A stretch of DNA of 40,444 nucleotides from the NCBI GenBank assembly GCA_947589485.1, contig CANQBK010000010.1:1-40444 (forward strand), written 5' to 3'. The stretch comes from an uncultured Clostridia bacterium (GTDB taxonomy: Bacteria; Bacillota; Clostridia; Oscillospirales; Acutalibacteraceae). This document shows positions 1,874 through 33,833 of the stretch, piece by piece. Made by a program: the position numbers and the translations under genes. Position 1 is the stretch's first letter. Every line of letters starts with the position of its first letter. The notes beneath the pieces were generated by a model. The model saw nothing but the letters and a program-made list of their open reading frames with translations, did not search any database and was not told the DNA's origin.

Positions 1874-2323
1874 TTGAAAATATCAACCAAAGTAGAATTT
1901 GGAATTATAGCCATAATAGATATAGCTATCAATTCGGAAAATAACAATGCGGTAACCGTTTACAGCATTTCAAAGCGTCAGAATATTTCGGGTAAATACC
2001 TTGAGCAGATCCTCCCTGTTCTAAGGCAAGCTCACCTTATTCGGGGATTAAAGGGCTCAAAAGGCGGTTATGTACTGACAAGACCTGCTGAGGATATTAC
2101 TTTTAAAGAAATTATCAACGCACTTGATATTACGATTTTGAGCGATGTTTATTTTTCTCCCCAGACTGAATCGGAAATCGTTAATACAATAAATGATAAT
2201 TTATGGAATAAAATGACCGATTATATGCGTAATTTTTCCGAAAACCTTACTCTTGCGGATATTATTGAGCGGTATTACAAATCCATAGAAAACAATTCAG
2301 AGCAAATAATGTATTATATTTAA
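1874..2323 (+). CDS. Rrf2-family transcriptional regulator, CymR-like
   Basis: The 149-aa protein begins MKISTKVEFGIIAIIDIA, the classic Rrf2 start. A winged helix-turn-helix follows (residues ~25-75, with ISGKYLEQILPVLRQAHLIRG and GSKGGYVLTRP). The start is a TTG with an AAAGGGGC ribosome site about 8 nt upstream. No cysteine is present anywhere, so it cannot bind an Fe-S cluster like IscR or NsrR. It resembles the cluster-free CymR type, which in Firmicutes represses cysteine and sulfur uptake genes through cysteine synthase. Its divergent position to a sulfhydrylase/reductase operon supports such a role (inference). Likely targets are the intergenic motif copies here and perhaps the related ones near the sulfate transporter. 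Confidence 0.85.
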   Translation: MKISTKVEFGIIAIIDIAINSENNNAVTVYSISKRQNISGKYLEQILPVLRQAHLIRGLKGSKGGYVLTRPAEDITFKEIINALDITILSDVYFSPQTESEIVNTINDNLWNKMTDYMRNFSENLTLADIIERYYKSIENNSEQIMYYI

Positions 2324-6936: not shown

Positions 6937-7548
6937 TTACTTTAATTCCTCTATTATTTTTAAAATTTGCTTTTCATCAACTTTATCGTAATTTTCACCG
7001 CAAATTTCAAGTATGCGTTCAAAGGCTTTTTTTCTGTTCTCCTCCGATTTAATTTCACTCTTTATACACACTCTGTATTTGCTTAAAATTTCTACTGTTT
7101 TATCGCATTTTTCATCGAGGGATTTTTCAATTTTTTTACGCAAAGCCTTACAGTACAAAGGGCTTTTGCCCGAGGTTGAAATTCCGACGGTAACATTATT
7201 CCTCTTAACAAGTGCAGGAAAAATAAATCCGCATTTTTCTTTATCGTCAACTGTATTTATAAGAATATTTTTGCTTTTGCAAAGCTCAAAAATATGGGTG
7301 TTGAGTTTGTTATCGTCTGTCGCGCTTATAACCATAAAGGCATCATCAATATCGGTATCCTTAAATTTTCTGTTAAGGATTTTTACTTCTTTTATCTTAT
7401 TTAATTCGTCACATATCCTATCTGCAACAACTGTTATCTGCGGCCTAAACGGCAACAGCTTTCGCACCTTTCTTAAAGCTACGATTCCTCCGCCTGCAAC
7501 CAAACATTTTTTATTTTCTATATCAATATAAAACGGAAAATATCCCAT
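6937..7548 (-). CDS. sirC: Precorrin-2 dehydrogenase / sirohydrochlorin ferrochelatase
   Basis: The 203-aa protein matches the Met8p/CysG N-terminal family. It starts MGYFPFYIDIENKKCLVAGGG, a Rossmann nucleotide-binding loop after a short strand. ISATDDNKLN follows (~residues 74-83), then the small domain with VGISTSGKSPLYCKALRKKIE. The enzyme oxidises precorrin-2 with NAD+ to sirohydrochlorin, and many members also insert iron to make siroheme. Whether this one chelates iron cannot be told from sequence, but no separate sirB/cbiX is visible. Its place between hemA and hemC, with a sulfite reductase-like gene nearby, points to siroheme as the operon's product. Confidence 0.9.
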   Translation of the reverse strand: MGYFPFYIDIENKKCLVAGGGIVALRKVRKLLPFRPQITVVADRICDELNKIKEVKILNRKFKDTDIDDAFMVISATDDNKLNTHIFELCKSKNILINTVDDKEKCGFIFPALVKRNNVTVGISTSGKSPLYCKALRKKIEKSLDEKCDKTVEILSKYRVCIKSEIKSEENRKKAFERILEICGENYDKVDEKQILKIIEELK

Positions 7549-7550
7549 AT

Positions 7551-8699
7551 TTACTCCTGTGCCTCAAAGGTTTTAAGAATTTTTATAAAAGCGGAAAATT
7601 CTTCAGCCGAGGCGTTATTTTTCATTCTGTAAATCAGTTCTTCAAGAGGTTTGTCCGACAAAGCGTTCTTCACATTACCGAGCGAGGGCAAAAACGAATG
7701 AAAAATCATATCCTTTTTCAAGTCGTCTATATCTTGTGATATAATTTCCTTTGCCGCATAAACGCTGTCCGCTTTTAATTCATTGTTTTCCTGTGCAAGC
7801 CTTTCAAAATAGTCTATATTAATTAATCTTACACCCTTTATATTGACAATTGAAGCGTCAATATCGGGCGGCACGGCTAAATCAATAAAAAGTCTTTTCT
7901 TGTTCCCGATTATGTGTTTTTTCAAATCATAAAGCGCAACCGTATAATGCGGACTTGAGGTTGCGCTTATTACGCAGTCCGCACTTTGAATATATTCGTA
8001 TCTTTTTTGATAATCGACCGTTTCTATTCCCATATCTTCTATAAACTTCAAATGAGAATTATGCTGTCTGAGCGTTGCTTTTACAGAAACATTTTTATGA
8101 GATACGAGATTTTTAAGTACCGTACTGCCCGTCTTTCCGCTTGCTCCTATTACAAGCACGCTGACGTTTTCGGCAAATCTTGCCGCCTCGTTTGCCGCCA
8201 GCGTTGCAACGGATACGGACGTTTTTGACAAAGCCGTTTTTGTTTTTATTTTCTTTGCGCAGGCAAAAGCCGATTGAAAAATCATATTAAGCTCATAAGA
8301 TACAAAATTATTTTCTTTGGAGTACATATAAGCTCTCTTAGTCTGACCTAATATTTCATCTTCGCCTATTACCATTGAATCAATACCGCAGGCGACCTTA
8401 AAAAGATGCTGAATTGCATTATCTCCGTGAAAAATCAACAGGTTTCTTAAAAGCAGATCCTCCTCGGTCCCCGAATTTTCGGCAAGCAAACCTATAACAT
8501 ATTTATCCGAGTTTTTTTCACCGCAATAGTAAACTTCAGTTCTGTTGCAGGTGCAAAGAATGACACATTCAGATATATATTTGCTTTTTATCAGCGCCGA
8601 AATAATTTTATTGCAAACGGTTTCTGAAAATGCCAGCTTTTCGCGCAAATCAATATCGGCATTTTTGTAATTTAAGCTGATACAATACAAAATAGACAC
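7551..8699 (-). CDS. hemA: Glutamyl-tRNA reductase
   Basis: HemA reduces glutamyl-tRNA(Glu) to glutamate-1-semialdehyde with NADPH, the first step of the C5 route. The protein shows LNYKNADIDLREKLAF at the N-terminus, catalytic Cys51 in CTCNRTEVY, CGIDSMVIGEDEILGQ, and a Rossmann motif VLVIGASGKTGS. At 382 aa it is shorter than Bacillus HemA (about 455), mostly at the C-terminal dimerisation end. A longer reading from TTG 8744 is unlikely because that TTG is part of the -35 box. GTG 8699 aligns best with family N-termini, but TTG 8690 has better ribosome-site spacing (AAGGGA about 10 nt away), so the start is uncertain by three codons. It is the first gene of the hem/siroheme operon. Confidence 0.93.
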   Translation of the reverse strand: MSILYCISLNYKNADIDLREKLAFSETVCNKIISALIKSKYISECVILCTCNRTEVYYCGEKNSDKYVIGLLAENSGTEEDLLLRNLLIFHGDNAIQHLFKVACGIDSMVIGEDEILGQTKRAYMYSKENNFVSYELNMIFQSAFACAKKIKTKTALSKTSVSVATLAANEAARFAENVSVLVIGASGKTGSTVLKNLVSHKNVSVKATLRQHNSHLKFIEDMGIETVDYQKRYEYIQSADCVISATSSPHYTVALYDLKKHIIGNKKRLFIDLAVPPDIDASIVNIKGVRLINIDYFERLAQENNELKADSVYAAKEIISQDIDDLKKDMIFHSFLPSLGNVKNALSDKPLEELIYRMKNNASAEEFSAFIKILKTFEAQE

Positions 8700-8715
8700 T
8701 TCCCTTACAAAAGTT

Positions 8716-8744
8716 ATTTTAATACAGCAAATAGCTTTCGTCAA
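8716..8744 (-). promoter_or_regulatory. Promoter of the hemA operon
   Basis: On the minus strand TTGACG (8739-8744), a 17-nt spacer and TAAAAT (8716-8721). The expected transcript starts near 8709, leaving a leader of only about 10-20 nt before hemA. Confidence 0.75.
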
Positions 8745-8781: not shown

Positions 8782-8813
8782 CAAAAGGCTGTATTTTAAA
8801 ATTATACAGCCTT
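8782..8813. repeat. 32-bp terminator-like hairpin, copy 1
   Basis: AAGGCTGTAT pairs with ATACAGCCTT around an AT-rich loop. The 32 bp are identical to 9070-9101. The copies flank the multi-hairpin element 8819-9067. Confidence 0.8.
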
Positions 8814-9069: not shown

Positions 9070-9101
9070 CAAAAGGCTGTATTTTAAAATTATACAGCCT
9101 T
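9070..9101 (-). terminator. Terminator of the sulfate transporter operon (hairpin copy 2)
   Basis: This is a 10-bp stem AAGGCTGTAT/ATACAGCCTT lying 10 nt after the cysA stop on the minus strand, followed by TTTTG. It is the second exact copy of the 32-bp hairpin at 8782-8813. Confidence 0.65.
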
Positions 9102-9111
9102 TGGTAACGTA

Positions 9112-10170
9112 TCAAATAATAACAAATTCTTCACGAAGCGATTGATTTTCAAGCAGATATGATTTATTGCCCGATGTGACAAAAATTCTGTAAATAAAAA
9201 CATCGACCTTTTCACCGACTGATACAGGCGGCAAATCAAGCGCTCTTTTCGCAATTAAGAGGGTATCGTTTGTACGGACCTCCAGTTCAATATTATCCCC
9301 TCTGAATGAAACTTTTTCTACTATACCCTCACTTGAAGAGCTTTTATAACTTTGCTCCTCGTTTTTCTTCGTAACCTTAACAAATTCGGGACGCACAAAG
9401 GCTTTATCGACCTTTTCGAGCTGTTTAAATGTATGAAATTTTCCGTAGTCGGGCAGCTCCGAGGGATGACCGAAAAATGATGCGGTAAACGCCGTCTGCG
9501 GATTTTGGTAAACCTCAAGAGGCGTTCCCTTTTGTTCGATTTTTCCTGCATTTGTTATGATAATTTCATCGGCAACTTCTATTGCTTCGTCTTGGTCATG
9601 GGTTACAAAAATACTTGTGACCCCCAACTTTTCAATCATTTCCTTGAGCCAGCTCCTAAGCTCCTTTCTTACCTTTGCATCAATAGCGGCAAACGGCTCA
9701 TCAAGAAGTAAAAGCTGCGGATTCGGAGCCAGCGCCCTTGCAAAAGCTACCCTCTGTCTTTGACCTCCCGAAAGCTGACTCGGATACCTTTTTTCAAGTC
9801 CCTCAAGGTTGACTAATTTTATAAGCTCCATTACTCTTTCATCAATCGTTTTCTTATCCTTTTTCTGTGTTTTCAGCCCAAAAGCAATATTATCATATAC
9901 AGTCATATACCGAAAAAGCGCGTAATTCTGGAACACGAATCCTATGCCGCGCTTGCTTGCGGGAATATTGTTTACTTTTTTTCCGTCGATTATTATTTCA
10001 CCGCTATCGGGCGTTTCAAGTCCCGCAATCATTCTGAGGATAGTGGTTTTTCCGCTTCCGCTGGGACCCAAAAGTCCTATGAGTTTTCCCTTTTCAATGC
10101 CGAAGTTTACATTATCCGAAGCCTTATAATCACCGAATTTCTTATTTATATTCTTTAATTCCACATACAT
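9112..10170 (-). CDS. cysA: Sulfate/thiosulfate ABC transporter ATP-binding protein
   Basis: This is the cytoplasmic ATPase of the sulfate importer. From the chosen start the protein is 352 aa: ABC domain (residues ~1-235) with Walker A GPSGSGKT (35-42), signature LSGGQRQRV (~135) and Walker B LLLLDEPFAA (~155). An accessory TOBE-like domain follows (~240-350), as in CysA and other CUT1/sulfate ATPases. The reading frame is open ten codons further upstream, but ATG 10170 gives the canonical MYVELKNINKKFG start and leaves 4 nt to the cysW stop. Sulfate specificity rests on the operon partners; molybdate or thiosulfate are alternatives. Confidence 0.9.
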   Translation of the reverse strand: MYVELKNINKKFGDYKASDNVNFGIEKGKLIGLLGPSGSGKTTILRMIAGLETPDSGEIIIDGKKVNNIPASKRGIGFVFQNYALFRYMTVYDNIAFGLKTQKKDKKTIDERVMELIKLVNLEGLEKRYPSQLSGGQRQRVAFARALAPNPQLLLLDEPFAAIDAKVRKELRSWLKEMIEKLGVTSIFVTHDQDEAIEVADEIIITNAGKIEQKGTPLEVYQNPQTAFTASFFGHPSELPDYGKFHTFKQLEKVDKAFVRPEFVKVTKKNEEQSYKSSSSEGIVEKVSFRGDNIELEVRTNDTLLIAKRALDLPPVSVGEKVDVFIYRIFVTSGNKSYLLENQSLREEFVII

Positions 10171-10174
10171 ATCA

Positions 10175-10993
10175 TCAAGCCTTCTTTCCCCTGTATTCAA
10201 CTATACTGCGGATAATGAGTATAATAAGGGCCATTATAACAAGCAATGATGACACCGCAAATGCAGGAACATACTGAAATTCGTTAAATAAAATTTCAAC
10301 ATGAAGAGGCAAGGTGTTTGTCTTTCCTCTTAAATGACCCGAAATAACGGATACCGCACCGAACTCACCCATTGCCCTTGCAGCACAAAGAACTATTCCA
10401 TACAAAAGCGCCCATTTTATATGCGGAAAGGTGATTTTTCTGAAAATTGTAAATCCGCCTGCGCCCATAAGAGCCGCTGCTTCTTCCTCCTCTGTTCCCT
10501 GAGCTTCCATAACAGGTATAAGCTCTCTTGAAATAAACGGAAATGTAACGAATACCGTTGCAAGGATTATTCCGGGAACCGCAAAAACTATCTGCAAGCC
10601 TAAATCCTGAAGCCATGGATAGATCGGGCTTTGTCTGCCGAATGTCAGAAGAAAAATCAAGCCTGCAATAATCGGCGAAACCGTGACCGGTATATCAATA
10701 ATAGTTGTAAGCAGTTTTTTCCCTCTGAATGGGAATTTTGTGATCGCCCATGATGCGAAAATTCCAAACACTGTATTTATCAGAACCGCAAAAACTGTTG
10801 CTTCTATCGTCAAGCCTGCCGCATCGATAGCATATTCATCAGTAACCGCTTTTTGATATGTTTCCCAGCCGCTGCGTAAAGCCTCGGTTATGACTGTTAT
10901 CAAAGGGAGGATAAGCATAAAAAATACAAAAATAACGCAAATGGAAATTAATATCCACTTTACTGCCTTTGAACCCTTTTTGTTTTCCTGCAT
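10175..10993 (-). CDS. cysW: Sulfate ABC transporter permease CysW
   Basis: The 272-aa integral membrane protein has about six helices: residues ~13-35, 62-85, 100-120, 135-158, 190-212 and 240-262. The ABC permease coupling loop EEEEAAALMGAGGFTIFRKITFP meets CysA. With CysT it forms the channel through which sulfate or thiosulfate crosses the membrane. The ATG overlaps the last base of the cysT stop, and a GGGAGG ribosome site lies in the end of cysT. Length and topology are normal for the family. Confidence 0.9.
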   Translation of the reverse strand: MQENKKGSKAVKWILISICVIFVFFMLILPLITVITEALRSGWETYQKAVTDEYAIDAAGLTIEATVFAVLINTVFGIFASWAITKFPFRGKKLLTTIIDIPVTVSPIIAGLIFLLTFGRQSPIYPWLQDLGLQIVFAVPGIILATVFVTFPFISRELIPVMEAQGTEEEEAAALMGAGGFTIFRKITFPHIKWALLYGIVLCAARAMGEFGAVSVISGHLRGKTNTLPLHVEILFNEFQYVPAFAVSSLLVIMALIILIIRSIVEYRGKKA

Positions 10994-11829
10994 TATTTAT
11001 TCCCTCCCTTTAAAATTTTGGTACTGCGTGCCTGAACTATATTTACCGCAAACAATACCGCAAAAGAGAATAACAGCATTACCAAAGCGATTGCAGTTGC
11101 GCTTGTATAGTCGTATTCCTGAAGCTCCGACATAATAATCAAAGGCGTTATTTCTGTTTCATACGGCATATTGCCCGCAATAAAGACAACGCTGCCATAC
11201 TCGCCTATACATCTTCCGAACGCAAGACCAAAGCCTGTAAATATCGCCGGTCTTATTTCAGGGAATATGATTTTCCAAAAAATTTTCGCTTTGCTTGCGC
11301 CTAAAACGCCCGCCGCCTCTTCATAAGAATAATCGAGCTTTTCAAGCACGGGCTGCACCGACCTGACAACAAACGGTATTCCTATAAATATCAATGCCAC
11401 CGTTATTCCGATCCTCGTATAAGCAATCTTTATACCGAATTGCTCAAAAAAGCTGCCTATTGCACCCGTATCTGCCGTCAGGGCAGTCAAAGCTATGCCG
11501 GCAACCGCCGTGGGCAGCGCAAAGGGAAGCTCTATCATTCCGTCAAGAACTCTCTTAAACGGAAAATCATATCTTACAAGAACCCACGCAAGGATAACCC
11601 CCATTACTGCATTTATCAATGATGCGATAAATGCAGTAATAAAGCTCACATAAAAGCTCGCAAGTACACGTTTACGGGTTATTATTTCTATTATTTCACT
11701 GAAGTCCATTTGAGCCGTGAACAATACCAACGACGCCAGCGGTATTATGACTATTAAACCGAGTATGGCAAGAGTCACGCCCATTGACAGTCCGAAGCCC
11801 GGTATTACTCTCTTTTTTGCTTTATTCAT
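10993..11829 (-). CDS. cysT: Sulfate ABC transporter permease CysT
   Basis: The 278-aa permease is the partner of CysW. It starts NKAKKRVIPGFGLSMGVTLA and has about six membrane helices. Its coupling motif is YEEAAGVLGASKAKIFWKIIFPEI (~residues 170-192), followed by the EYGSVVFIAGNMP stretch typical of CysT. The start lies 16 nt after the binding-protein stop, with an AGGTGT site. Order binding protein - CysT - CysW - CysA is the usual one for this importer. Confidence 0.9.
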   Translation of the reverse strand: MNKAKKRVIPGFGLSMGVTLAILGLIVIIPLASLVLFTAQMDFSEIIEIITRKRVLASFYVSFITAFIASLINAVMGVILAWVLVRYDFPFKRVLDGMIELPFALPTAVAGIALTALTADTGAIGSFFEQFGIKIAYTRIGITVALIFIGIPFVVRSVQPVLEKLDYSYEEAAGVLGASKAKIFWKIIFPEIRPAIFTGFGLAFGRCIGEYGSVVFIAGNMPYETEITPLIIMSELQEYDYTSATAIALVMLLFSFAVLFAVNIVQARSTKILKGGNK

Positions 11830-11845
11830 TAACTACACCTTAGCT

Positions 11846-12952
11846 TTATTCTTCATATATCCGGTCGAAAATCCCGCCATCGGCAAAATGTTTTTCCTGA
11901 GCCTTGTCCCAGCCGCCGAAATCATCAATAGTCACAAGGTTTATGTCAAGGTTAAACACATCTGAATATTCTTTGAGGATTTTTTCGTTTGAAGGACGGT
12001 AATAATTATCGCCTGCTATTTTCTGAGCCTCGTCCGAGTAGAGATAATTGAGATATTCTGTTGCAACCTCTCTTGTTCCTCTCTTGTCAACGACCTCATC
12101 AACTATTGCTACCGACGGCTGTGCAAGAATACTGATGCTCGGCGTAATAATTTCGTAATCGTCAGGATAGTCCTTGATTGAAAGAAACGCCTCGTTTTCC
12201 CATGCTATCAGGACATCTCCCTGTCCGTTTTCCACAAAGGTTGTTGTCGCTCCCCTTGCACCCGAATCAAGTACCAAAACATTTTGGAACAGCTTTTTAA
12301 TAAACTCCTGTATCTTTGACTCGTCACCGTTATAGAGCTTATCTGCGTATGCCCATGCCGCAAGATAATTCCATCTTGCTCCGCCCGATGTTTTCGGATT
12401 AGGAGTGATAATGCCTACTCCGTCCTTAACAAGGTCATCCCAATCCTTTATATTTTTGGGATTACCTTTTCTTACAAGGAAAACTATTGTTGAAGTATAC
12501 GGCGCGCTGTCTTTATCAAATTCCTTAACCCAGCCGTCCTCAATAAGTCCCGCGTCCCGAACGGCATTTACATCGCCCTCAAGAGCAAGCGTAACTACAT
12601 CTGCCTCAAGACCGTTTGCAACCTCAAGTGCCTGCTTGCCGGAACCGCCGTGCGACTGAGTTATCTCTACATCCTGACCTGTCTGCTCTTTCCAGTGAGT
12701 TTTAAACGCCTCATTATACGCCGCATACAATTCTCTTGTCGGGTCATACGAAACATTCGTTATTGTTACCTTATCGGTCTTACCGGCTGTGTCCTCGCTT
12801 GATTTGTTTTTATCGGCAGAATCCTTGCTTGATGAGCTGCTTGATGAACCGCCCGATGAGGCACCTGCGGAATTGCCGCATCCGGTAAAAGCAAGCACTG
12901 ATGTTGTCAAAATTCCTGCTGTTAATATAATAGATAATATTCTCTTTTTCAT
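11846..12952 (-). CDS. sbp: Sulfate/thiosulfate-binding lipoprotein
   Basis: This is the extracellular substrate-binding subunit of the importer. The 368-aa precursor has a lipoprotein signal peptide with lipobox FTGC (Cys25) and a serine-rich linker (~residues 30-60). The mature Sbp/CysP fold follows: [19 protein letters not shown] near its start, [12 protein letters not shown] with the phosphate/sulfate-type binding loop, and [22 protein letters not shown] ribosome site is 8 nt before the ATG. Thiosulfate or sulfate cannot be distinguished. The gene is first in the operon and has a long leader with a small upstream ORF. Confidence 0.92.
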
Positions 12953-13231: not shown

Positions 13232-13333
13232 CCCTACTATTTTCGTATGTTTTCTATGTTTTGTCGTGCTTATATTATATTCAGCCAATATTATCTTGTC
13301 AAGAGATTTTTACCTATTATTTTTGTATGTTTA
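13232..13333. promoter_or_regulatory. Pair of 22-bp direct repeats around the sulfate transporter promoter
   Basis: CCTACTATTTTCGTATGTTT (13233-13252) and CCTATTATTTTTGTATGTTT (13313-13332) differ at two positions and are 80 bp apart. The second lies about 10 bp upstream of the -35; the first is in the early transcribed leader. This is a bracket typical of a repressor operator pair. CTATTTTGTAG at 1739-1749 near the Rrf2 gene is similar, so the same regulator is possible. Confidence 0.5.
13274..13302 (-). promoter_or_regulatory. Consensus promoter of the sulfate transporter operon
   Basis: On the minus strand TTGACA (13297-13302), a 17-nt spacer and TATAAT (13274-13279) form a perfect sigma-A promoter. 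Transcription would start near 13267, giving a leader of about 315 nt before sbp that contains the 36-codon ORF. No T-box or SAM riboswitch consensus was seen in the leader. Confidence 0.85.
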
Positions 13334-13500: not shown

Positions 13501-13529
13501 TTGACATTTCTTTTTATAAGTAGTAATAT
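13501..13529 (+). promoter_or_regulatory. Promoter of the gamma-glutamyl ligase operon
   Basis: TTGACA (13501-13506), a 17-nt spacer and TAATAT (13524-13529). The leader of about 118 nt includes a hairpin TTACGG/CCGTAA (about 13581-13607) followed by a T-rich stretch. Between this promoter and the divergent one (13334-13500) I see only AT-rich DNA. Confidence 0.75.
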
Positions 13530-13653
13530 ATAGCATATTAAACCTATATATTTTATATGATTAATTATATGTTTTAAATTTACGGCATTATATTTTTATA
13601 TCCGTAAGTTTATTGATTTAATTACACAACGACTTATTTAATTCGGTGATTTT

Positions 13654-14952
13654 ATGAGTTTTGATTTTGATAACACAAATATAAAAAAGAATGTATTTAA
13701 AGGCTTTTTCGGAATTGAAAAGGAAAGTCTTAGGGTCGATGAGAGAGGTTATCTTTCACACACAAGACACCCATTTGTCAATAATCCGAATATTGACCGC
13801 GACTTTTGCGAAAATCAGGTTGAAATTGTTACCGATGTATGTGACAGTATTCAGTCTGTTTATAATCGGCTTACAGAACTTCATAATACGGTCATCAAAA
13901 CGCTTGACCGCCTTGAAACAGGACGAGAGCTTTTATGGCCGTTTTCCTCGCCTCCTTACATAAAAGGCGAAAACGATGTTCCGATTGCAAATTTCGGCGG
14001 AATATTAAAAGGAAAAGAAATTTACAGAAAGTATCTGGCGGAAAAATACGGAAAGAAAAAAATGCTTTTTTCGGGAATACACTTTAATTTTTCGTTTGAC
14101 GACAATCTTCTTGCTATCGGCTTTCAAAAAAGCGACCAAGACTCTTTCAGAAAATATAAGGACAGCATATATCTTGAGCTTGCTAAAAAACTCACAAAAT
14201 ACAGTTGGCTTATTGTATTCCTGACCGCCGCAAGTCCGATTATGGATTCATCGTTTTTTCGTGAAAGCTCAATCGGTAACGATATAATAACGCCGTATTC
14301 TTCTGCTCGATGCAGTGAAATAGGTTACTGGAACAAATTCATTCCAGTTTTTAAGTACGACAATATTGAAAGCTATACTGACAGCATACGGCGTTATGTT
14401 GACAATGGTTTGCTTAAATCTTTTTCAGAGCTTTACTATCCGCTCAGGCTCAAACCGCGCGGTGAAAATTCTTTGGAAAATCTTAGGCAAACGGGCGTTA
14501 ATCATATTGAGCTTCGGATGCTTGATTTAAATCCGCTTTCACCCGTAGGAATAAAAATAGAGGATATTAATTTTATTCATTTTCTCATAATATACCTTAT
14601 GTCGTTTGACGCCGGGGATTTTTTGGACAGCGAACAAATAAAAGCAATAATAAACACAAAGTGCGCCGCAAAATACGACATTAACACATTGATAGATTTT
14701 GGCGGAAAGAAATTAACGGTTAAAGATTCCGCACTTACGGTTCTCAAAAATATGGAGAACTTCTTTTTAAAACTCGGTCAAGCTGATGCAGTCAAATGTA
14801 TAAAATATCAAATGACGAAAATAACCGATAAAAACAAAAGATATGCCGAAACAATAAGGAATGATTTCGGCAAAAATTATGTAATAAACGGGCTGGAGCT
14901 GTCTATGGCTTACGCCGATAAATATTGCAGGGAGGCTGCTTTAAATGTGTGA
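13654..14952 (+). CDS. gshA: Glutamate-cysteine ligase, GshA type
   Basis: This ligase would join the gamma-carboxyl of glutamate to cysteine with ATP in the cytoplasm. The 432-aa protein carries the class 1 GCS marks: FGIEKESLRVDERG near the N-terminus, DFCENQVEIVTDV, LWPFSSPPYI, GIHFNFSF (~residue 140), and NHIELRMLDLNPLSP (~285). It matches the N-terminal ligase half of bifunctional GshF, but no ATP-grasp half follows. So by itself it yields gamma-glutamylcysteine, not glutathione. The ribosome site is weak (GGTGA, 4 nt before ATG). Its end overlaps the next gene by 8 nt. Promoter and genes are divergent from the sulfate importer, linking thiol synthesis with sulfur uptake. Confidence 0.85.
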   Translation: MSFDFDNTNIKKNVFKGFFGIEKESLRVDERGYLSHTRHPFVNNPNIDRDFCENQVEIVTDVCDSIQSVYNRLTELHNTVIKTLDRLETGRELLWPFSSPPYIKGENDVPIANFGGILKGKEIYRKYLAEKYGKKKMLFSGIHFNFSFDDNLLAIGFQKSDQDSFRKYKDSIYLELAKKLTKYSWLIVFLTAASPIMDSSFFRESSIGNDIITPYSSARCSEIGYWNKFIPVFKYDNIESYTDSIRRYVDNGLLKSFSELYYPLRLKPRGENSLENLRQTGVNHIELRMLDLNPLSPVGIKIEDINFIHFLIIYLMSFDAGDFLDSEQIKAIINTKCAAKYDINTLIDFGGKKLTVKDSALTVLKNMENFFLKLGQADAVKCIKYQMTKITDKNKRYAETIRNDFGKNYVINGLELSMAYADKYCREAALNV

Positions 14953-15718
14953 AATATTCGGCGTATGCTGTAATAAAGAAACATTCATAAACGACTATTT
15001 AAAAACATTTTTCAGTCATAGCAACAATCACCCCCACGGTTGGGGACTTGCTGTTTCCGATGACAATAATATTTCAATAGAAAAAGAACCTATGCAGGCA
15101 TCAAAAAGCGAATATCTTAAAGAACGTCTTTCTTTGCCTATTGTTACAAAATCAGCATTGGCTCATATACGTTACGCAACAATAGGAAATATTGATTACA
15201 AAAACTGCCATCCTTATTCAAAAAGGGATAATTCATCACGACGCTGGACGCTTATTCATAACGGTACTATTTTTGACTATCCGCCGCTAAACGGTTTTTT
15301 GAAACATCAAAAAGGCGATACGGACAGCGAACGTATATTGCTTTATATTATTGAACAGATTAACAAAAAGCAATCGGAACTGAAAAGAACTCTTAACTCG
15401 TGGGAACGCTTTTCCCTGCTTGATAATATTGTATCAGATATGTCACGCGGAAACAAACTCAATCTTCTGATTTACGACGGAAAGTATATGTATGCTCATA
15501 CTAATTATGCGGATTCCTTATACTATCTTCAAAACGAAAACGGGATTATTTTTTCTACTCTTCCGCTGAGCAATGAAGATTGGCAGAAGCTGACATTTAC
15601 GACTTTGATGTCATATAAGGACGGCAAGACGGTATTCAAGGGTACTAATCATAAAAATGAATATACGGATAACGAGGAATCAATGAAATTGCTATATCAG
15701 ATATTCTCTTGTCTATAA
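14945..15718 (+). CDS. Class II glutamine amidotransferase-like protein (YafJ/EgtC type)
   Basis: The 257-aa protein begins MCEIFGVCC, so Cys2 becomes the N-terminal nucleophile after Met removal. HPHGWGLAV, LAHIRYATIGN, CHPYSKRD, LIHNGTIFDY and GDTDSERILLYI match the class II (Ntn) amidotransferase domain of YafJ/EgtC proteins. No synthase domain is attached, so it may hydrolyse a gamma-glutamyl amide rather than feed ammonia to a fused partner. EgtC in ergothioneine synthesis removes a gamma-glutamyl group from a cysteine conjugate, which fits a place between two gamma-glutamyl ligase genes (inference). It overlaps gshA by 8 nt in an AAATGTGTGA junction, indicating translational coupling. 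Confidence 0.75.
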   Translation: MCEIFGVCCNKETFINDYLKTFFSHSNNHPHGWGLAVSDDNNISIEKEPMQASKSEYLKERLSLPIVTKSALAHIRYATIGNIDYKNCHPYSKRDNSSRRWTLIHNGTIFDYPPLNGFLKHQKGDTDSERILLYIIEQINKKQSELKRTLNSWERFSLLDNIVSDMSRGNKLNLLIYDGKYMYAHTNYADSLYYLQNENGIIFSTLPLSNEDWQKLTFTTLMSYKDGKTVFKGTNHKNEYTDNEESMKLLYQIFSCL

Positions 15719-15737
15719 AAGAAAGTATGAGGCAAAT

Positions 15738-17123
15738 ATGGATAATGAAATTATAAGGAAAGCGTTATATAACAAATATATAGAACCTACCAAAAAAAAG
15801 ACGGAAAAATATATTGGCGTTGAAATTGAAATGCCGATTGTGAACCTATCAAAAGGGGCGGTAGACTTCAATATTGTTCACAGCGTTACCGACAGCTTTT
15901 TAAATCGGTTTGGCTTTCAGCCGTTCGGCAAAGACGACGACGGAAATATCTACTCCGCTGAAAGCCCTGAAAACGGAGATATTCTTTCGTATGATTGTTC
16001 ATATAACAATCTTGAGCTGTCATTCGGCAGAGAAAAAAATTTATACAACATTCAAAATAGGTTTTTTGAATATTATAAGTTCTTGAATCAAGAATTTATA
16101 AAATATAACTATACTTTAACGGGTATGGGAGTAAACCCCTATCGAAAATATAATCATAATATTCCTATACCAAACGGACGTTACCGTATGCTTTTTCACC
16201 ATTTAGGCTCTTATAAAAAATACAAGGATTTGCCTATGTTTTTTCACAGCTATCCTGAATACGGCACATTTTCAAGCGCGTCACAGGTTCAGCTTGATGT
16301 ATCGTATGACGATTTGCCTCTCGTCGTAAACACCTTTTCAAGGCTTGAACCGATTAAAGCCTTGCTGTTTTCAAATTCCGTTCTCTTAGATGAAAACGAG
16401 GAGCTTCTATGCTGCCGTGATATGTTCTGGGAAAACAGTACACACGGTATAAATCCTCACAATATCGGAATGTATGATTATGAGTTTTCATCAATTGACG
16501 AGATTATTTCATATATTGAATCTTCATCTATCTATTGCACGGAAAGGGATAATAAATACATAAATTTTGAACCGATTAAACTGAAAGATTATTTTGATAA
16601 ATCGGTTATCACAGGCGAATACTTTGACGGCGAAAAATATAAAACTATTGAATTTATACCAAAGCTCGAAGATATTGAATATCTGAGAACTTTTAAATTT
16701 ATTGATTTAACATATAGAGGAACAATAGAGTTTCGCAGTATGTGTTGCCAACCAATTAAGGACAGTATGTGTATCTCCGCCTTTCACCTCGGCCTTATGA
16801 ACAAAGTCAATGAACTTTCTTGCCTGCTCCAAAATGACCGTGTGCTTTATCATCAGGGATATAATGCGCTTGAGCTTAGAAAGCTCCTTATCGGGCGCAG
16901 ACTGCCGAACTTTATAGACGCAGATGACTTATATACCCTTACTAAGAGAATAATAGATTTGTCATATAAAGGTCTATGTGAAAGAGATCTTAACGAAGAA
17001 AAATTATTAACACCGCTTTATGACAGGGTAAAACTCCGAACAAACCCTGCAAAAAATATGCTTGAGTTAAAAAACAGCGGAGTCAACTTGCAGGATATTA
17101 TTCTCAAGTACGGTGAAGTTTAA
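15738..17123 (+). CDS. GCS2-like carboxylate-amine ligase (EgtA-like)
   Basis: The 461-aa protein has the glutamate-cysteine ligase family 2 hallmarks: YIGVEIEMPIVN (residues ~25-36, metal-binding E-x-E), SYNNLELSFG (~86-95), SASQVQLDVSYDDLP (~184-198) and YRGTIEFRSMCCQP (~340-353). Family members (EgtA, plant-type GCS, YbdK-like) attach glutamate or another acid to an amine using ATP. A second, unrelated GCS fold next to a GshA-type enzyme is redundant unless its substrate differs. Candidates are adding a second gamma-glutamyl group or modifying gamma-glutamylcysteine; both are guesses. The gene lies 19 nt after the amidotransferase gene and completes the operon. It has no membrane segment. 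Confidence 0.7.
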   Translation: MDNEIIRKALYNKYIEPTKKKTEKYIGVEIEMPIVNLSKGAVDFNIVHSVTDSFLNRFGFQPFGKDDDGNIYSAESPENGDILSYDCSYNNLELSFGREKNLYNIQNRFFEYYKFLNQEFIKYNYTLTGMGVNPYRKYNHNIPIPNGRYRMLFHHLGSYKKYKDLPMFFHSYPEYGTFSSASQVQLDVSYDDLPLVVNTFSRLEPIKALLFSNSVLLDENEELLCCRDMFWENSTHGINPHNIGMYDYEFSSIDEIISYIESSSIYCTERDNKYINFEPIKLKDYFDKSVITGEYFDGEKYKTIEFIPKLEDIEYLRTFKFIDLTYRGTIEFRSMCCQPIKDSMCISAFHLGLMNKVNELSCLLQNDRVLYHQGYNALELRKLLIGRRLPNFIDADDLYTLTKRIIDLSYKGLCERDLNEEKLLTPLYDRVKLRTNPAKNMLELKNSGVNLQDIILKYGEV

Positions 17124-17354: not shown

Positions 17355-17887
17355 TTAAAGAAAATCCACAACGGAAAAAGGCAATTCACCATTTTTCTTA
17401 CGCTGACGGTATTTATATTTGGCTAATCCGAAACGGTTAAAAGCATCGATAAATACGGCAACAACAGAATAAAGTGTTTCAATTTTTCGAGCAAAACATC
17501 AGCACTTATAACATGATAGGCTCTATGCTTTTCATTCCCACTTCCGCATATTGTTTTCCTGTCTATTGCTATTGTTTCTCTTCTTCCTCTTTTTACTGAT
17601 AACCAATTTATCAAACACAACGAGAGCTCAGACGGGTCGATTCTTTCAAAAACACGTCTGAATGTATCACTGTCCGGTATACCATTCGGAAGTTCAAGAA
17701 ATTTCGCTAAATATTCTTTGCGATTTATTCCGAACGCCTCCATATCGGAATAATCTTCTCCTCCGCATATAACTGTACACAGTCCTATGATTATTATATC
17801 TTCAAGCTTATGGCGGATGTTTCCGTGACTTGTTCTCCTCGGCTCCGTAATATTTTGTATTTCCTCTTTTAAATCCTCTATCTTCAT
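17355..17887 (-). pseudogene. ISAs1-family transposase relic, frameshifted and shortened
   Basis: The N-terminal ~125 residues match ISAs1 transposases: EPRRTSHGNIRHKLEDIIIIG, FLELPNGIPDSDTFRRVFERIDP, and KRGRRETIAIDRKTICGSG, which holds the first acidic residue of the DDE site. After AYHVISA the family sequence breaks off. The reading frame ends at 17423, but a +1 frame continues as KIETLYSVVAVFIDAFNRFG...FSVVDFL to a stop at 17355. That looks like the C-terminus of a different transposase joined in. The catalytic core with the other two acidic residues is missing, so it is inactive. No clear inverted ends or target duplications were seen. Confidence 0.8.
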
Positions 17888-21708: not shown

Positions 21709-22923
21709 TCACTTGTATTTGTATATTTTTATAATAAATGTCGTTCCTTTGCCTGTGACAGACTTTACATCTATACTTCCGTTATGCTTTTCTATTATGC
21801 TTTGTGCAAGGGACAAACCTATTCCGATACCGTTTCCGTCGGAATTTCTTGATTGATAAAAACGCTCGAAAATATGCGGTAAATCTTTTTCTGAAATTCC
21901 TATTCCCGTATCTGATATTGTTATAGCAGTATAAAGTTTATTGTCCTTAGCGGAAAGAGTAACTGTCCCCCCTCTTCCCGTATGCTCTATACAGTTTTTA
22001 ATTATATTTGACAGAGCCTCACATATCCATTTTTTATCACAATTTAACTGTATTTCTTTACATTCGTTTTTAATTATATTTACTCCTTTAAGGTCGGCAA
22101 TAATATCGTTGTTCCTTATGCAATCGTCAAATATGCTGTCGGTGCTTTCATTTTCATAATGAAATTCGATTGTATTTGAATCAAATTTTGACAGTTTAAG
22201 AAGCGACTGAACAAGAAAGCTCATATTGTCCAACGACTGCCTTATATCACGCAAAAATTCCTTTCGCATTTTATCGGTCATATAATTGTCCTCAATAATA
22301 TTATCTACTATAACCATAGTTGAGGTAATAGGTGTTTTTATTTGGTGGGATATATCGGAAATCAACCTTTTAAGATATACCTTATCATTAAGATTTTTTT
22401 CGGAATATTCACGAAGCATTATAGTAGTTTTATATATTTCATTTTTAAGCACCGAGTTTTCATCTTCCGTGTTTTTCTCGATTTCCATATTATATTTTCC
22501 GCTGTTTATTGCAGATAAATAATTTGTAAGTTCAGCAATATCTTTTTTGCGTTTTTTCTGATATATAACAAAAACTAAAGTATATACTGCTCCTGACGCA
22601 ATTATAACAACTGACGTCAAAAGTATTGTACTATAACTGTTTTGTTCATTTTCATATACCGACCAATCATTTAGGGATATGCCGTATGTCCGCAAAAAAT
22701 TTTTTCCCGCTTCAGCATCGCTTTCTCCGTTCAATATTTTTAAAACTTCAGTTTCGTCAATATCGGGATATTTTTCAAGAACAACACTTATAATTCCCTC
22801 CACGGAATTGTTTGTAGAATTTCTTATACTATCAAGACTGAGTTTTACCGTAAATATTCCGATTGCCGTAAAAATTATCGTAATAACCGCAAAAGATATA
22901 ATAACCAATTTTGAACGCTTCAT
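21709..22923 (-). CDS. Sensor histidine kinase of an ABC-linked two-component system
   Basis: The 404-aa membrane kinase has two helices (~residues 8-28 and 103-123) enclosing a short extracellular loop. Then come a HAMP-like linker, a HisKA domain with the phosphoacceptor in DISHQIKTPITS (~residue 193), and a HATPase_c domain with N box NIIKNCIEHTG, G1 DTGIGISEKD, F box IFERFYQ and G2 GNGIGIGLSLAQ. It should phosphorylate the regulator encoded just upstream. The start overlaps the regulator stop by 4 nt. The gene order ATPase, permease, regulator, kinase indicates a Bce/Vex-like module that senses and removes membrane-active peptides. The small sensor loop fits kinases that read transporter activity (inference). 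Confidence 0.88.
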   Translation of the reverse strand: MKRSKLVIISFAVITIIFTAIGIFTVKLSLDSIRNSTNNSVEGIISVVLEKYPDIDETEVLKILNGESDAEAGKNFLRTYGISLNDWSVYENEQNSYSTILLTSVVIIASGAVYTLVFVIYQKKRKKDIAELTNYLSAINSGKYNMEIEKNTEDENSVLKNEIYKTTIMLREYSEKNLNDKVYLKRLISDISHQIKTPITSTMVIVDNIIEDNYMTDKMRKEFLRDIRQSLDNMSFLVQSLLKLSKFDSNTIEFHYENESTDSIFDDCIRNNDIIADLKGVNIIKNECKEIQLNCDKKWICEALSNIIKNCIEHTGRGGTVTLSAKDNKLYTAITISDTGIGISEKDLPHIFERFYQSRNSDGNGIGIGLSLAQSIIEKHNGSIDVKSVTGKGTTFIIKIYKYK

Positions 22924-23570
22924 TTTTTCTCCATCCTGTAACCGATATTTTTAACTGTTTTTATAATATCCGTACCGAGCTTCTTTCTTATTCGCTTAAT
23001 GTAAACGCTAAGAGTATTGTCGTTTACATAATTTCCTGAAATATCCCATATCCTTTCCAATATGCTTTCACGACTGACCGTTTTTCCGCAATTTTGGACA
23101 AGCATTAAAAATATTCTGTATTCCAAAGAAGTTAATTCCAACGGAATATTGTTTTTTGTTACGGTTCTTGCACTCGAATCAATTGTTATATCACCTAAAG
23201 TTAAAACATTTGAAGTGTTATTCTTTTTGGTAAGCCTTTTTATTCTTGCCAGAAGTTCACGGCTTGAAAACGGCTTTGTTATATAATCCTCCGCACCAAG
23301 CTCAAATCCCTTTACAACATTATCCTCATCATCGAGAGCTGTGAGGAATATTACCGGAGCGCAGTTTATATTTTTTATTTCCTCGTACAGCTCAAATCCG
23401 TTTCCGTCCGGCAGTGTTATATCTATAATTATAACATCATAATCACCGCCGGATTTTTCAAGCGCTTCCTTATATGTTGAACATACGACGGTTTCATAAT
23501 TGTTATTATGAAAATAATACTTCAGTCCCTTGCATATTGTTTTATTGTCCTCAACCAGCAATATATTCAT
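22920..23570 (-). CDS. OmpR-family response regulator
   Basis: The 216-aa regulator starts MNILLVEDNKTICKG. The receiver domain has the phosphorylation aspartate in DVIIIDITLPDGNGFEL (~residue 51) and the conserved lysine in YITKPFSSRELLARI. The winged-helix DNA-binding domain spans ~125-216 with LTSLEYRIFLMLVQNCGKTVSRE and TLSVYIKRIRKKLG. An in-frame upstream codon at 23612 is open, but ATG 23570 matches family N-termini and has a GGGGG ribosome site. A likely target is the direct repeat before the ABC ATPase gene (27245-27263). Confidence 0.9.
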   Translation of the reverse strand: MNILLVEDNKTICKGLKYYFHNNNYETVVCSTYKEALEKSGGDYDVIIIDITLPDGNGFELYEEIKNINCAPVIFLTALDDEDNVVKGFELGAEDYITKPFSSRELLARIKRLTKKNNTSNVLTLGDITIDSSARTVTKNNIPLELTSLEYRIFLMLVQNCGKTVSRESILERIWDISGNYVNDNTLSVYIKRIRKKLGTDIIKTVKNIGYRMEKK

Positions 23571-23608
23571 ACTAACCCCCTGTACAGGTATTACCGCCGT
23601 ATTTTTTA

Positions 23609-26524
23609 TCATATATTATCATTGCGGATAATTTCTATTATATTTTGCTTTTTCAGCCTTTTTTTCGAGAAACCGGCTGTAATTAAAATCAATACAATGA
23701 CGGCCGAAATACTTATCAGAACTGCCTGCCATGGGAACATAAATTCAAGAGATTTTCCGACAGATTCAGCGTCCCACATACTTGTAAATATATAATGTAT
23801 AACAGCCGTTGCTATTATACCGGTCATACAGCCTATAAACAGACCTTTAACGGCATAGAACAGACACTCAAGCGTTATCATTCCGTTAAATTCCCGTTTG
23901 GTCATACCCACTGAACGCAACATTGCAAATTCCTTTTGTCTGAATTTCATATTTGTCGTAACAGTATTAAAAATGTTGGTAACGGCAATAAGAGAAATCA
24001 CAGCTATAATACCGTATACCAGATACTGTACAATTGAAGCTATTGAGTTTACCTGTTTTGCCGATTCAACAATATTATTATAAATATATATTTCCCTGTC
24101 AATACTGCTGAGGCGTTGTTCGGTTCTGACGGAATTTGATGAAAATATATACATCATATTACTAATTTTGTCTGATTCGGGATAATTAGCCAAAAGCCAT
24201 TCTTTGCTGACAATAAGATAACCATAATTCAAGCCGTTTTTTGTTATTAAATCTTTAAATTCTGCCGTATTCGTAATCTCTCCTCCTATTTCAAGTTTAA
24301 GGTGTTGTTCTTCAGGCAAATATGTTCCGTTTTCTTTGTCACACAAATGGTATTTCATATCCAACGTATATCCAACAGGGTTCTTCATATACTTAATTGT
24401 ATGAGTAATACTTTCGTTATCCGGTTTAATAACTCCTTGATTTATATTTACTATTATAGCCTTATCTTTCATTTTATCATAACTATACCCTAACTTTTTC
24501 AACAGCTTTTTATAATTTAGGTCATCAAAAGCTATAAGATGTGCAAGAGCGGACATATTATTCCATTCTCCATTTTCGTCAGAAATAATATCAAAACCCA
24601 TATTTTTACTGTATTCATATTTTTGGTTCGGGTGTAACGCAACAGTATAATCATAATCACTTATTTTTTCGGGGAGCTTATCGTTAGGAATATCATATAT
24701 AAGATAACACGATGGGTCATAAAATGTATAGCAATAATCTTCAACTTCATCGTATTTTGCAATTTCCTTGAATATATCCTCCTGCTCATCAAAAGACAGG
24801 CGTTCCTCACCGTTATATGTATCATTTGGGAGTTCCAAGCTCATATTACAATTATAACTAATTAATGTTGTATTATAAAGATACAATGAATAATTAACGA
24901 AAGAAAAAACAGCAATGAATAGAGATACACTTACAACTATTGATATTAACGCCGTGCGGTATTGACGCTTGCTCCTTTTCATATTTTTCCATGCGAGCTT
25001 TCCTCCCACACCGAACACCTTACTTATGAACGCCGGTGTTTTAAAGGCATTTTTCTTACCTCTCTTTATATAAATTTCTTTATTTTTTCTGACTTCCTCT
25101 ATCGAGGAAACTCTTGAGGCTCTCTTAGTCGGTGTTTTAAAGGCATTTTTCTTACCTTTCTTTATATAAATTTCTTTATTTCTTCTGACTGCCTCTATCG
25201 GTGAAACTCTTGAGGCTCTCATAGCCGCCGAAACAGAGGCGAAAAATATAGTCGCTGCTCCAAGTACAATTGCCGCAAGCACTGAAATCCATGAAATTGA
25301 AAAGGTTATGTTTAATCCGTCAAATACATCAAAAAGTATTACGTTTGACAAATTGACAACAGCTATACCTCCGCCTATACCGATAAATAATCCTATGGAT
25401 ATGCCGAATATACCTAAGACAAAGCCCTCAAAAAATATACTGTTTCTTATTTGTTTAGGTGTTGCTCCGACAGTTGACAAATTTCCGTATAAAACAATTT
25501 TCTCGGTTAAGGATATGGAAAAAGCATTTTTAATTATGAACACACTTGCCGCCATTACAAGTATAATCAGTCCTAAAGATATATAAAACATAATAGGTTT
25601 AAATGTATTTTCAAATGATTCATTGCAAGAATGAAGATTATCGTTAATTGAAACAGACAAAATGCGGAACTCACTTTCCGCCAATTTTTTATATGTGTCA
25701 TTCTCCGTTTCTTCACCAAAATTCATACCGTAAAGACTTTCAAATATATCTTCACTATCTATTCCGGTAATGTCGGATATAAAGTTAACGCAGTTATCTC
25801 TGTTTCCGTTATGTATTTTTATTTTTACCGCTTTGTTAAATTCTCCTTCACCAAAAGCAGTTGCTATATTATCGGATAAATCAGTATATCCGTATATATT
25901 TACATAATTCTTTCCCGGTCTGTCATCGTTCTGAGGCTCACGTTCAAGTATTCCGACAACCGTGTATGTTTTGGTAAATGACTTATTAAACACGGAGTCC
26001 GCTCCGATTTCCGCTATACCGTCTTTTGACTGATAAACTCCTACATCAAGGGTCATCTTATCTCCCGTTTTATATTTTTTGGAGGAATAATCCATAAAAT
26101 CCTTTGAAAGAACAATCTCATCGGGATTTTGCGGATAGTGCCCCTCTTTTAGCGAAAAATCATAACATTCTTTAAAGCAGTTTTCACTATATGAAATTAT
26201 AGAAATAAATTTCCTGAATTTTGATGTTGAATCTTTAAATGGGGAGTTACCGATTGCCTCCTCTTTATATATCGTTTCTGTATTTCTGTTAAGCTCCAAT
26301 TTTTCTATATTATCACTTGTTGGTTTTTCCATAAAAAAACATACATCATAATTCCCGAAAACTTTTAAATAAAAATTATAATAAGATTCTTGCAGGCTTG
26401 CGGCAGAACAGGCGATAATTGTAATCATCGCCATAGACAGGGCTATTCCTATTACGGTAACAACGGTTCTGCTCTTGTTCATTCTCATACTTTTAAGCGT
26501 AAATTTACGCATTATATTCATCAT
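23609..26524 (-). CDS. FtsX-like ABC transporter permease with internal 33-aa duplication
   Basis: The 971-aa permease has one helix near residues 15-40 and a large extracellular domain (~45-310). A three-helix FtsX unit follows (~315-435), then one helix (~520), a second extracellular domain (~550-835) and three helices (~850-960). This is the duplicated MacB/FtsX layout of export or detoxification permeases. The linker at ~437-502 holds two copies of RASRVSPIEAVRRNKEIYIK-type sequence with GKKNAFKTP, a tandem duplication also plain in the DNA. RASRVSPIEAVR is the usual cytoplasmic coupling motif, so the extra copy is recent and perhaps tolerated. The ATPase gene overlaps its start by one base. 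Likely role: peptide antibiotic export or resistance. Confidence 0.88.
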   Translation of the reverse strand: MMNIMRKFTLKSMRMNKSRTVVTVIGIALSMAMITIIACSAASLQESYYNFYLKVFGNYDVCFFMEKPTSDNIEKLELNRNTETIYKEEAIGNSPFKDSTSKFRKFISIISYSENCFKECYDFSLKEGHYPQNPDEIVLSKDFMDYSSKKYKTGDKMTLDVGVYQSKDGIAEIGADSVFNKSFTKTYTVVGILEREPQNDDRPGKNYVNIYGYTDLSDNIATAFGEGEFNKAVKIKIHNGNRDNCVNFISDITGIDSEDIFESLYGMNFGEETENDTYKKLAESEFRILSVSINDNLHSCNESFENTFKPIMFYISLGLIILVMAASVFIIKNAFSISLTEKIVLYGNLSTVGATPKQIRNSIFFEGFVLGIFGISIGLFIGIGGGIAVVNLSNVILFDVFDGLNITFSISWISVLAAIVLGAATIFFASVSAAMRASRVSPIEAVRRNKEIYIKKGKKNAFKTPTKRASRVSSIEEVRKNKEIYIKRGKKNAFKTPAFISKVFGVGGKLAWKNMKRSKRQYRTALISIVVSVSLFIAVFSFVNYSLYLYNTTLISYNCNMSLELPNDTYNGEERLSFDEQEDIFKEIAKYDEVEDYCYTFYDPSCYLIYDIPNDKLPEKISDYDYTVALHPNQKYEYSKNMGFDIISDENGEWNNMSALAHLIAFDDLNYKKLLKKLGYSYDKMKDKAIIVNINQGVIKPDNESITHTIKYMKNPVGYTLDMKYHLCDKENGTYLPEEQHLKLEIGGEITNTAEFKDLITKNGLNYGYLIVSKEWLLANYPESDKISNMMYIFSSNSVRTEQRLSSIDREIYIYNNIVESAKQVNSIASIVQYLVYGIIAVISLIAVTNIFNTVTTNMKFRQKEFAMLRSVGMTKREFNGMITLECLFYAVKGLFIGCMTGIIATAVIHYIFTSMWDAESVGKSLEFMFPWQAVLISISAVIVLILITAGFSKKRLKKQNIIEIIRNDNI

Positions 26525-33058: not shown

Positions 33059-33059
33059 T

Positions 33060-33818: not shown

Positions 33819-33833
33819 AATATTTCCTCCTGT

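Follow-up and report, generated by a model that had tools for sequence, protein, structure and literature searches.

A conserved Clostridia operon of a GshA-type ligase, a class II amidotransferase and a diverged GCS2-like ligase appears to belong to a cysteine regulon

A contig of an uncultured Clostridia bacterium (CANQBK010000010.1, positions 1 to 40,444; the whole stretch of 40,444 nucleotides is called the window below) carries three complete genes on the forward strand, which encode a GshA-type glutamate-cysteine ligase, a class II amidotransferase and a third protein that we call GCS2L, for GCS2-superfamily-like ligase (Table 1). The first two genes overlap by 8 nucleotides and the second is separated from the third by 19, exactly as the initial annotation of this tightly spaced operon had it. 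The operon gave no match in a plasmid collection, and we found no description of it in the openly accessible literature that was searched (subscription papers fall outside that scope, and most of the results were off topic).

Table 1. Coordinates of the operon and of the features associated with its regulation in the window.
Feature	Position	Strand	Remarks
gshA, GshA-type glutamate-cysteine ligase, 432 aa	13654..14952	+	PF04262 1.1e-70
Class II (Ntn) amidotransferase, 257 aa, Cys2 nucleophile, YafJ/EgtC/Dug3-like	14945..15718	+	PF13230 8.9e-35
GCS2L, diverged GCS2-superfamily carboxylate-amine ligase, 461 aa	15738..17123	+	TIGR01436 7e-10, below cut-off
Promoter-like site of the operon, TTGACA-17-TAATAT, 10/12	13501..13529	+	weak alone
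Putative Rrf2-type operator CCTA-N9-TATG, directly 3' of the operon's -10	13543..13559	+	
Promoter-like site of the sulfate importer, TTGACA-17-TATAAT, 12/12	13274..13302	-	
Putative Rrf2-type operator, sulfate-importer promoter	13313..13329	+	
Second putative Rrf2-type operator, sulfate-importer promoter	13233..13249	+	
Rrf2-family regulator gene, candidate for the operator	1874..2323	+	TIGR00738 96.4 bits, over cut-off
ABC importer for sulfate (CysA, CysT, CysW and a binding protein), transcribed away from the operon	9112..12952	-	NCBIfam matches

The first protein is of the GshA type, with 238.5 bits against PF04262 (gathering score 27). It also matches the model of the bifunctional synthetase GshF (NF002688) over its residues 7-423 and positions 9-417 of the 756 in the model, at 315.7 bits where the cut-off is 425, and the C-terminal ATP-grasp domain is absent. 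Among chains in the Protein Data Bank (PDB) it is nearest to 3ln7, a GshAB; its closest likeness is to the N-terminal part of GshF/GshAB, the ATP-grasp part having no counterpart. When the homologue from locus L086 is aligned with GshA of E. coli and GshAB, the acidic, His and Arg positions of the active site, which we take to be metal ligands, are retained. Given this strong homology, GshA would form gamma-Glu-Cys from Glu and Cys. Eubacterium oxidoreducens (L203) has another GshA-type gene, separate from the operon, whose product of 432 aa is 43% identical and also lacks the ATP-grasp half.

The second protein scores 120.4 bits against PF13230 (GATase_4; gathering score 23), and 31 of 31 members of its family match this model at E 0.001. 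Residues C2, R76, N106, G107 and D127 are invariant in these 31 proteins (the one of the window included), as is the start M-C-E across the family, and the class II Ntn amidotransferase with Cys2 as nucleophile proposed initially is thereby upheld. The nearest PDB chains are 1te5 (1.2e-17), deposited as a conserved hypothetical protein, and the EgtC 4zfj at 7e-4. The parallel that had been drawn with EgtA and EgtC of ergothioneine synthesis survives only as a working likeness, because the protein reaches 65.8 bits against the EgtC model TIGR03442, far under the cut-off of 218.65. EgtA is described as similar to gamma-Glu-Cys ligase and EgtC to class II amidotransferases (PMC9103826); to this extent the operon is similar, as it too combines a ligase that would make gamma-Glu-Cys with an amidotransferase of class II, but its GshA is of the PF04262 type, its amidotransferase falls short of the EgtC cut-off, EgtD is not found over cut-off and there is a second ligase. 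That resemblance would also suit an oxygen-independent route to an ergothioneine-like compound, with the amidotransferase deglutamylating a histidine-derived conjugate. We regard such a route as highly improbable given the EgtC score and the EgtD family PF10017, which is over cut-off in none of 30 genomes (the window's own included, with one weak fragment there; EgtB was not searched for). Dug3 is described as class II amidotransferase-like and linked to glutathione breakdown in yeast (PMC12653102). The amidotransferase of the operon, a YafJ-type PF13230 protein, is likewise of the class II type, but Dug3 acts in complex with Dug1 and Dug2, whereas the partners here are two ligases.

GCS2L is the most diverged of the three. 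It does not reach the gathering score of PF04107 (GCS2): the protein of the window has no Pfam match at E 0.1, nor has its L052 homologue any at E 0.01. It matched only the model of plant-type glutamate-cysteine ligases (GCL; TIGR01436), at 37.9 bits against a cut-off of 463, which places it outside that family. Yet 41 of 41 GCS2L family members match TIGR01436 at E 0.01 (best E 4.8e-18), and the family profile aligns over residues 177-455 with the plant GCL chains 9ufc, 6gmo and 2gwc (2e-9 to 3e-8) and, at 37-43 bits and with the G-x-E-x-E motif included, with three PF04107-type ligases. The label "GCS2-like" given initially is thus right as a statement of distant homology. GCS2L aligns with both the plant/proteobacterial GCL and GCS2 types and keeps the motifs G-x-E-x-E and E-x-R, but differs from them by its low score (~38 bits against 463), by the missing PF04107 match and by the stretch Gly-Ile-Asn-Pro-His-Asn, which in the alignment replaces the Asp-x-x-Arg stretch of plant GCL. 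A comparison of the GshA and GCS2L profiles with hhalign gave a probability of 0.2%, i.e., no homology at this level, and the two ligases can be called unrelated in that sense, as had been stated; they presumably share the glutamine-synthetase-type ligase fold. By cut-off, the module is not GshF, not defined by EgtC and not a member of TIGR01436 or PF04107.

The three genes are a cluster that is not due to chance. In the 61 genomes of the genus (the window's own included; threshold for the amidotransferase >250 bits), GCS2L is found in 38 and GshA and the amidotransferase in 36 each, these last two sets of genomes being identical. The full triad is present in 35/61 and none of the three genes in 22/61; one genome (G034) has GshA and the amidotransferase without GCS2L. 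We also scanned contigs from 84,980 species, which gave 430 stretches encoding relatives, and kept the best 80 (the most similar to the window) as named loci; these overlap with the genus loci in organisms. The three open reading frames (ORFs) lie on one strand in 63 of the 80, 59 in the order of the window and 4 in the order amidotransferase-GCS2L-gshA, and tblastn completed the triad in L060, L065 and L083, which brings the count to 66/80 (some of them truncated by a contig end). In 9 more (8 plus L062), L081 and L087 among them, the contig ends at most 2.3 kb 5' of GCS2L, and the remaining five are L064, L068, L069, L088 and L096. Conservation of the linkage across related genomes, whose absence the initial annotation had named as the outcome that would count against it, is thus what we found. 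The correlation between distance matrices is 0.86-0.91 over 61 loci, a value to which shared ancestry alone contributes. Most of these genomes are metagenome-assembled and fragmented, and absences in single genomes are weak for this reason. In the 13 genomes searched because gshA does not adjoin GCS2L, a GshA domain is encoded elsewhere in 7 (G486-G489, G495, G499 and G496, where it is a GshF). In one locus (L065, 8451-9950), XdhC and MOSC genes, whose families are linked to sulfur handling for the molybdenum cofactor, stand between the amidotransferase and GCS2L genes.

In a sample of 393 genomes of the class, 31 encode a relative of GCS2L: 9 belong to the clade of the triad (>500 bits), 20 to a distant clade (~157-252 bits) and 2 are weak. 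The triad-clade genomes have the GshA domain in 9/9 cases (in G379 and G439 it is located elsewhere and 35-36% identical) and GshF in 0/9, and among the matches listed a GshA domain occurs in at least 30 of the other 384 genomes, two of these matches being weak fragments. The distant clade probably has a different function, because neither GshA nor the amidotransferase (>250 bits) was found in any of the 12 genomes tested of its 20. At the loci of this clade (L161-L180), GshA and the amidotransferase are not nearby; the ligase of L161 adjoins a YcdB/PepSY-domain protein, and those of L176, L178 and L179 are beside or near genes of 1,890-2,005 codons.

What the amidotransferase might do can be approached through its partners. 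It occurs with GshA and without GCS2L in G359 (L234, beside cysK, metB/C, Rrf2 and hydE) and in G034 (L241), and in G090 (L240) it is beside a PF04107 GCL (TIGR01436 149 bits, below cut-off), again without GCS2L. It is usually accompanied by a ligase of the gamma-Glu-Cys type, and GCS2L may be lacking. This bears on the idea that the amidotransferase frees ammonia from glutamine for GCS2L to amidate gamma-Glu-Cys into a thiol like glutathione amide, which is known in the phototrophic sulfur bacterium Chromatium (PMC7278568). The amidotransferase gene does adjoin that of GCS2L on the 5' side in most of the 80 named loci. However, a protein whose ligase partner can be GshA by itself or an ordinary GCL is unlikely to be solely the ammonia donor of GCS2L. 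Moreover, gshA stands between the two genes in L032, L182 and L183, and no amidotransferase-GCS2L fusion was noticed in the ORF tables. We thus consider this model, weakened as the principal explanation by these partners, to be improbable. The pairings without GCS2L favour hydrolysis of a gamma-glutamyl thiol, and the likeness to EgtC, Dug3 and YafJ points the same way: the amidotransferase would be a gamma-glutamyl hydrolase. The G090 locus also encodes a MetN/MetI transporter whose binding protein is a fusion of a cystine-type and a MetQ-type part, and a similar MetN/MetI-type transporter directly precedes GCS2L in L096.

The relation between the two ligases is most visible in G346 (L185), where the amidotransferase adjoins an 887-residue fusion of GCS2L (~1-460) and GshA (~465-887), which argues that both ligases serve one pathway. 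In this respect the module is like GshF/GshAB, whose GshA half is homologous to the GshA of the operon (NF002688 over window residues 7-423) and in which two ligases are likewise joined in one chain. It differs from them by lacking the ATP-grasp half, by having GCS2L as second ligase (N-terminal in the sole fusion seen) and by the addition of the amidotransferase. The fusion, as a mirror of the GshA-ATP-grasp fusion GshF, could mean that GCS2L replaces glutathione synthetase by amidating the cysteine carboxyl of gamma-Glu-Cys with an amine to give a gamma-Glu-Cys-X thiol, the amidotransferase serving only turnover. The lack of GshF in the nine triad-clade genomes of the class and of PF02955 and PF18419 matches in the window's own genome would fit this, but in the GCS-superfamily enzymes that have been characterised it is the gamma-carboxylate of Glu, and not the cysteine carboxyl of a peptide, that is activated. 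Besides, G496 encodes the amidotransferase and GCS2L together with a true GshF, and the module is therefore not everywhere a mere substitute for glutathione synthesis. We find such a replacement unlikely, though worth keeping in mind.

The initial annotation had remarked on the absence of a glutathione synthetase and of EgtD, and indeed neither GshF, GshB nor EgtD is found over cut-off in the window's own genome. The glutathione synthetase model PF02955 had no match at E 0.001 in 25 of 30 relatives searched (own genome included), and 2 of the 5 matches elsewhere are below cut-off. For most of the anaerobes that carry the operon, our searches did not turn up a glutathione synthetase. The three genomes over cut-off (G011, G017 and G069) leave room for glutathione synthesis of the ordinary kind, in which a synthetase encoded elsewhere has escaped recognition, GCS2L is a spare GCL and the amidotransferase breaks down glutathione in the manner of yeast Dug3. 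Yet one would hardly expect a redundant GCL to accompany GshA in 35 of the 38 genus genomes that have GCS2L, or to be fused to it, and together with the 25 relatives lacking the synthetase this makes the explanation quite improbable.

The regulatory region appears to tie the operon to cysteine. Its own promoter-like site is weak alone, because shuffled versions of the 4.7-kb region give 20.7 such sites, compared with the 29 observed; in relatives, the sequence upstream of gshA is enriched in 7-mers that contain TTGACA. Upstream of gshA we also found the palindrome CCTA-N9-TAGG, with the consensus ATAACCTAyyAwayarATAGGTTAT over 20 sites. The form CCTA-N9-TA[GT]G precedes gshA in 29 of 67 de-duplicated regions, when 0.32 are found in shuffles and other spacings give at most 4. 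A strict form of the operator (arms 8-13 apart) is upstream of gshA (20/67), cysK (12/18), sufS (3/9), metB/C (1/19) and luxS (0/4), and is absent from the controls, i.e., the distant GCS2 clade (0/19) and random genes (0/180); a looser motif is upstream of 42/67 gshA genes. In ten hand-chosen genomes, ACCTA-N9-TAGGT has 13 sites in 8 genomes, 11 of them at gshA (2), cysK (3), metB/C (4) and sufS/Rrf2 (2), and the 2 others inside other genes.

In the window the sites are variants with the right half TATG. There are 5 occurrences of CCTA-N9-TATG where 0.78 are expected: the three of Table 1, one between the sulfhydrylase-like and Rrf2 genes (1714-1730) and one within a gene (28418-28434). A stricter pattern, derived from these sites, occurs 3 times in the 2.39-Mb genome, always in the window, and the close relative L052 retains the three promoter sites as judged by eye. 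The Rrf2-family protein of the window scores 97.7 bits against the IscR model and 95.9 against the CymR model, both below cut-off, and its gene is preceded by a near-match to the operator (1828-1844). Rrf2 repressors are reported to bind half-sites separated by nine bases, e.g., TGTAA-N9-TTACA (PMC9218516), and CymR, of the same family, controls cysK and sulfur genes in Firmicutes (PMC3828012). The layout of half-sites nine bases apart upstream of cysteine genes, expected of such a regulon, is found in the relatives, with TATG variants in the window. It shares with the CymR regulon both this operator layout and a putative Rrf2-family control of cysK and sulfur genes, but the bases of the half-sites are unlike those of the example. 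As judged from these motifs, the operon appears to belong to a cysteine regulon. Since operator variants are found at both promoters, the operon and the sulfate importer appear to be co-regulated in the window's genome. The place of the operon in a cysteine regulon appears to be new, and in the literature consulted no operon of GshA, amidotransferase and GCS2L was described as part of a CymR-type regulon. Control by a riboswitch or T-box was considered and set aside, with no Rfam match over the gathering score upstream of the operon of the window and no riboswitch or T-box in six relatives.

The gene neighbourhoods also bear on a sulfur role, for which the initial annotation had relied on the divergent sulfate importer. 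The identity of the importer is confirmed, with CysT and CysW exceeding their equivalog cut-offs, but among the 80 named loci its genes rarely neighbour the operon (CysW in 2, CysT in 5, the binding protein in 2). We therefore dropped the adjacency as general evidence and preferred the shared operator. The sulfur role itself is supported by the shared Rrf2-type operator and by recurrent neighbours, namely cysK, metB/C, Rrf2 and sufS/iscU. Counting the homologues of Rrf2, cysK, metB/C, sufS, iscU and luxS within 7 kb, we found 11.4 sulfur genes per 100 kb at 19 genus loci and 8.6 at 79 named loci. The controls gave 0.4 (19 loci of the distant clade) and 0.8 (20 stretches drawn from genus genomes regardless of content). 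One or more of these genes occur at 12/19 genus, 37/79 named and 2/8 further class loci, compared with 1/19 in the distant clade and 2/20 random stretches. The [FeFe]-hydrogenase maturase hydE also recurs beside genes of the operon (L191 2806-3843 and L234 3515-4645, both TIGR03956), and a hydE-like neighbour, tested as radical SAM only, is found in L041 (9081-10148).

Taken together, we lean slightly towards the operon being a cysteine-regulon module by which cysteine is both stored and handled in the form of gamma-glutamyl thiols, with cysteine storage, redox buffering or sulfur delivery as possible purposes. It would work like the corresponding stretch of glutathione or ergothioneine metabolism: gamma-Glu-Cys is made, used, and its gamma-Glu group removed. 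GshA would couple Glu to Cys, and GCS2L would be a second ATP-dependent ligase, most likely activating the gamma-carboxylate of Glu and joining it to a different amine; as acceptor we would guess gamma-Glu-Cys or some other amine derived from cysteine. The amidotransferase would take off the gamma-Glu cap to give back cysteine or its conjugate. The operator and gene set seen in these genomes suggest that an Rrf2-type repressor binds sites of the CCTA-N9-TAGG type and governs the operon along with genes that make cysteine and homocysteine, mobilise sulfur and, in the window's genome, import sulfate, so that capped cysteine may accumulate or be released with the cysteine supply. A more specific proposal, possible but doubtful, is that strict anaerobes use the three enzymes to produce a low-molecular-weight thiol not described before, with two GCS-superfamily ligases replacing GshA and the ATP-grasp synthetase, an Ntn gamma-glutamyl hydrolase trimming the product, and cysteine-regulon control.

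Several observations weigh against the module being a cysteine-regulon system for gamma-glutamyl thiols. The association of the genes has exceptions: three genus genomes (G001, 62% complete, G031 and G056) have GCS2L sequence in partial matches without GshA or the amidotransferase. Likewise, G085, which is 97% complete, has GCS2L but neither partner (it is the only one with GCS2L among 38 genomes of the same order outside the genus). An Rrf2 gene and not gshA precedes the amidotransferase in L081 and L087, GCS2L is apart from the other two genes in L064 and L096, and no GshA was found in 6 of the 13 genomes with non-adjacent genes (G491-G494, G497 and G498, whose completeness is not given and to which L081 and L087 belong). 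Two genomes with the triad, G011 and G017, carry PF02955 over cut-off and may have a glutathione synthetase. On the regulatory side, the operator motif was chosen after these loci had been viewed, the looser motif precedes 9/180 random genes, and 2 of the ten hand-chosen genomes are without an ACCTA-N9-TAGGT site. A reversed pattern used as a control gave 15 sites against 13, and only the location of the sites is specific (the locations of the control sites were not inspected). The six sulfur families were also picked after viewing the loci, which makes the enrichment at the named loci post hoc, and the 8 further class loci have only 3.0 sulfur genes per 100 kb.

To our knowledge, the low-molecular-weight thiol of many gut and rumen Clostridia is unsettled. 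The operon points to genes, to a regulation and to a cultured carrier among the named loci (Eubacterium oxidoreducens DSM 3217, L072) through which this question is open to experiment. The trio conserved in many of these bacteria seems capable of building, extending and breaking down a small cysteine-based molecule by a route that fits neither the glutathione nor the ergothioneine pathway, and GCS2L represents a family of ligases that Pfam does not recognise and that is now tied to cysteine control.

The part of the window upstream of the operon looks like a region for sulfate assimilation, with the importer, a gene resembling that of O-acetylhomoserine sulfhydrylase (386-1624; its TIGR01326 score does not reach the cut-off) and, on the reverse strand at 2375-8744, what we take to be a tetrapyrrole/siroheme run (hemL, hemB, cobA-hemD, hemC, precorrin-2 dehydrogenase, hemA). 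Between hemA and cysA, an identical palindromic stretch of 25 bases (8787-8811 and 9075-9099) flanks a GC-rich block that is possibly a small mobile element. Directly 3' of the operon is a skipping-rope RNA (RF02924, 17192-17271, reverse strand; 43.8 bits, over the gathering score), and a short gene for a transposase with a PF13808 domain (17423-17887) is close by. Two sets of what we assume to be a two-component regulator, an ABC ATPase and a large FtsX-like permease (21709-27195 and 31173-36200; the kinase gene at 21709 was identified by Pfam) resemble modules for sensing antibiotic peptides. Finally, in two loci of other genomes a PF04107 ligase gene is paired with a gene of the glutathionylspermidine-synthase type (L189, 8575-11209) or with a weak match to a circularly permuted ATP-grasp (L190, 515-3089).

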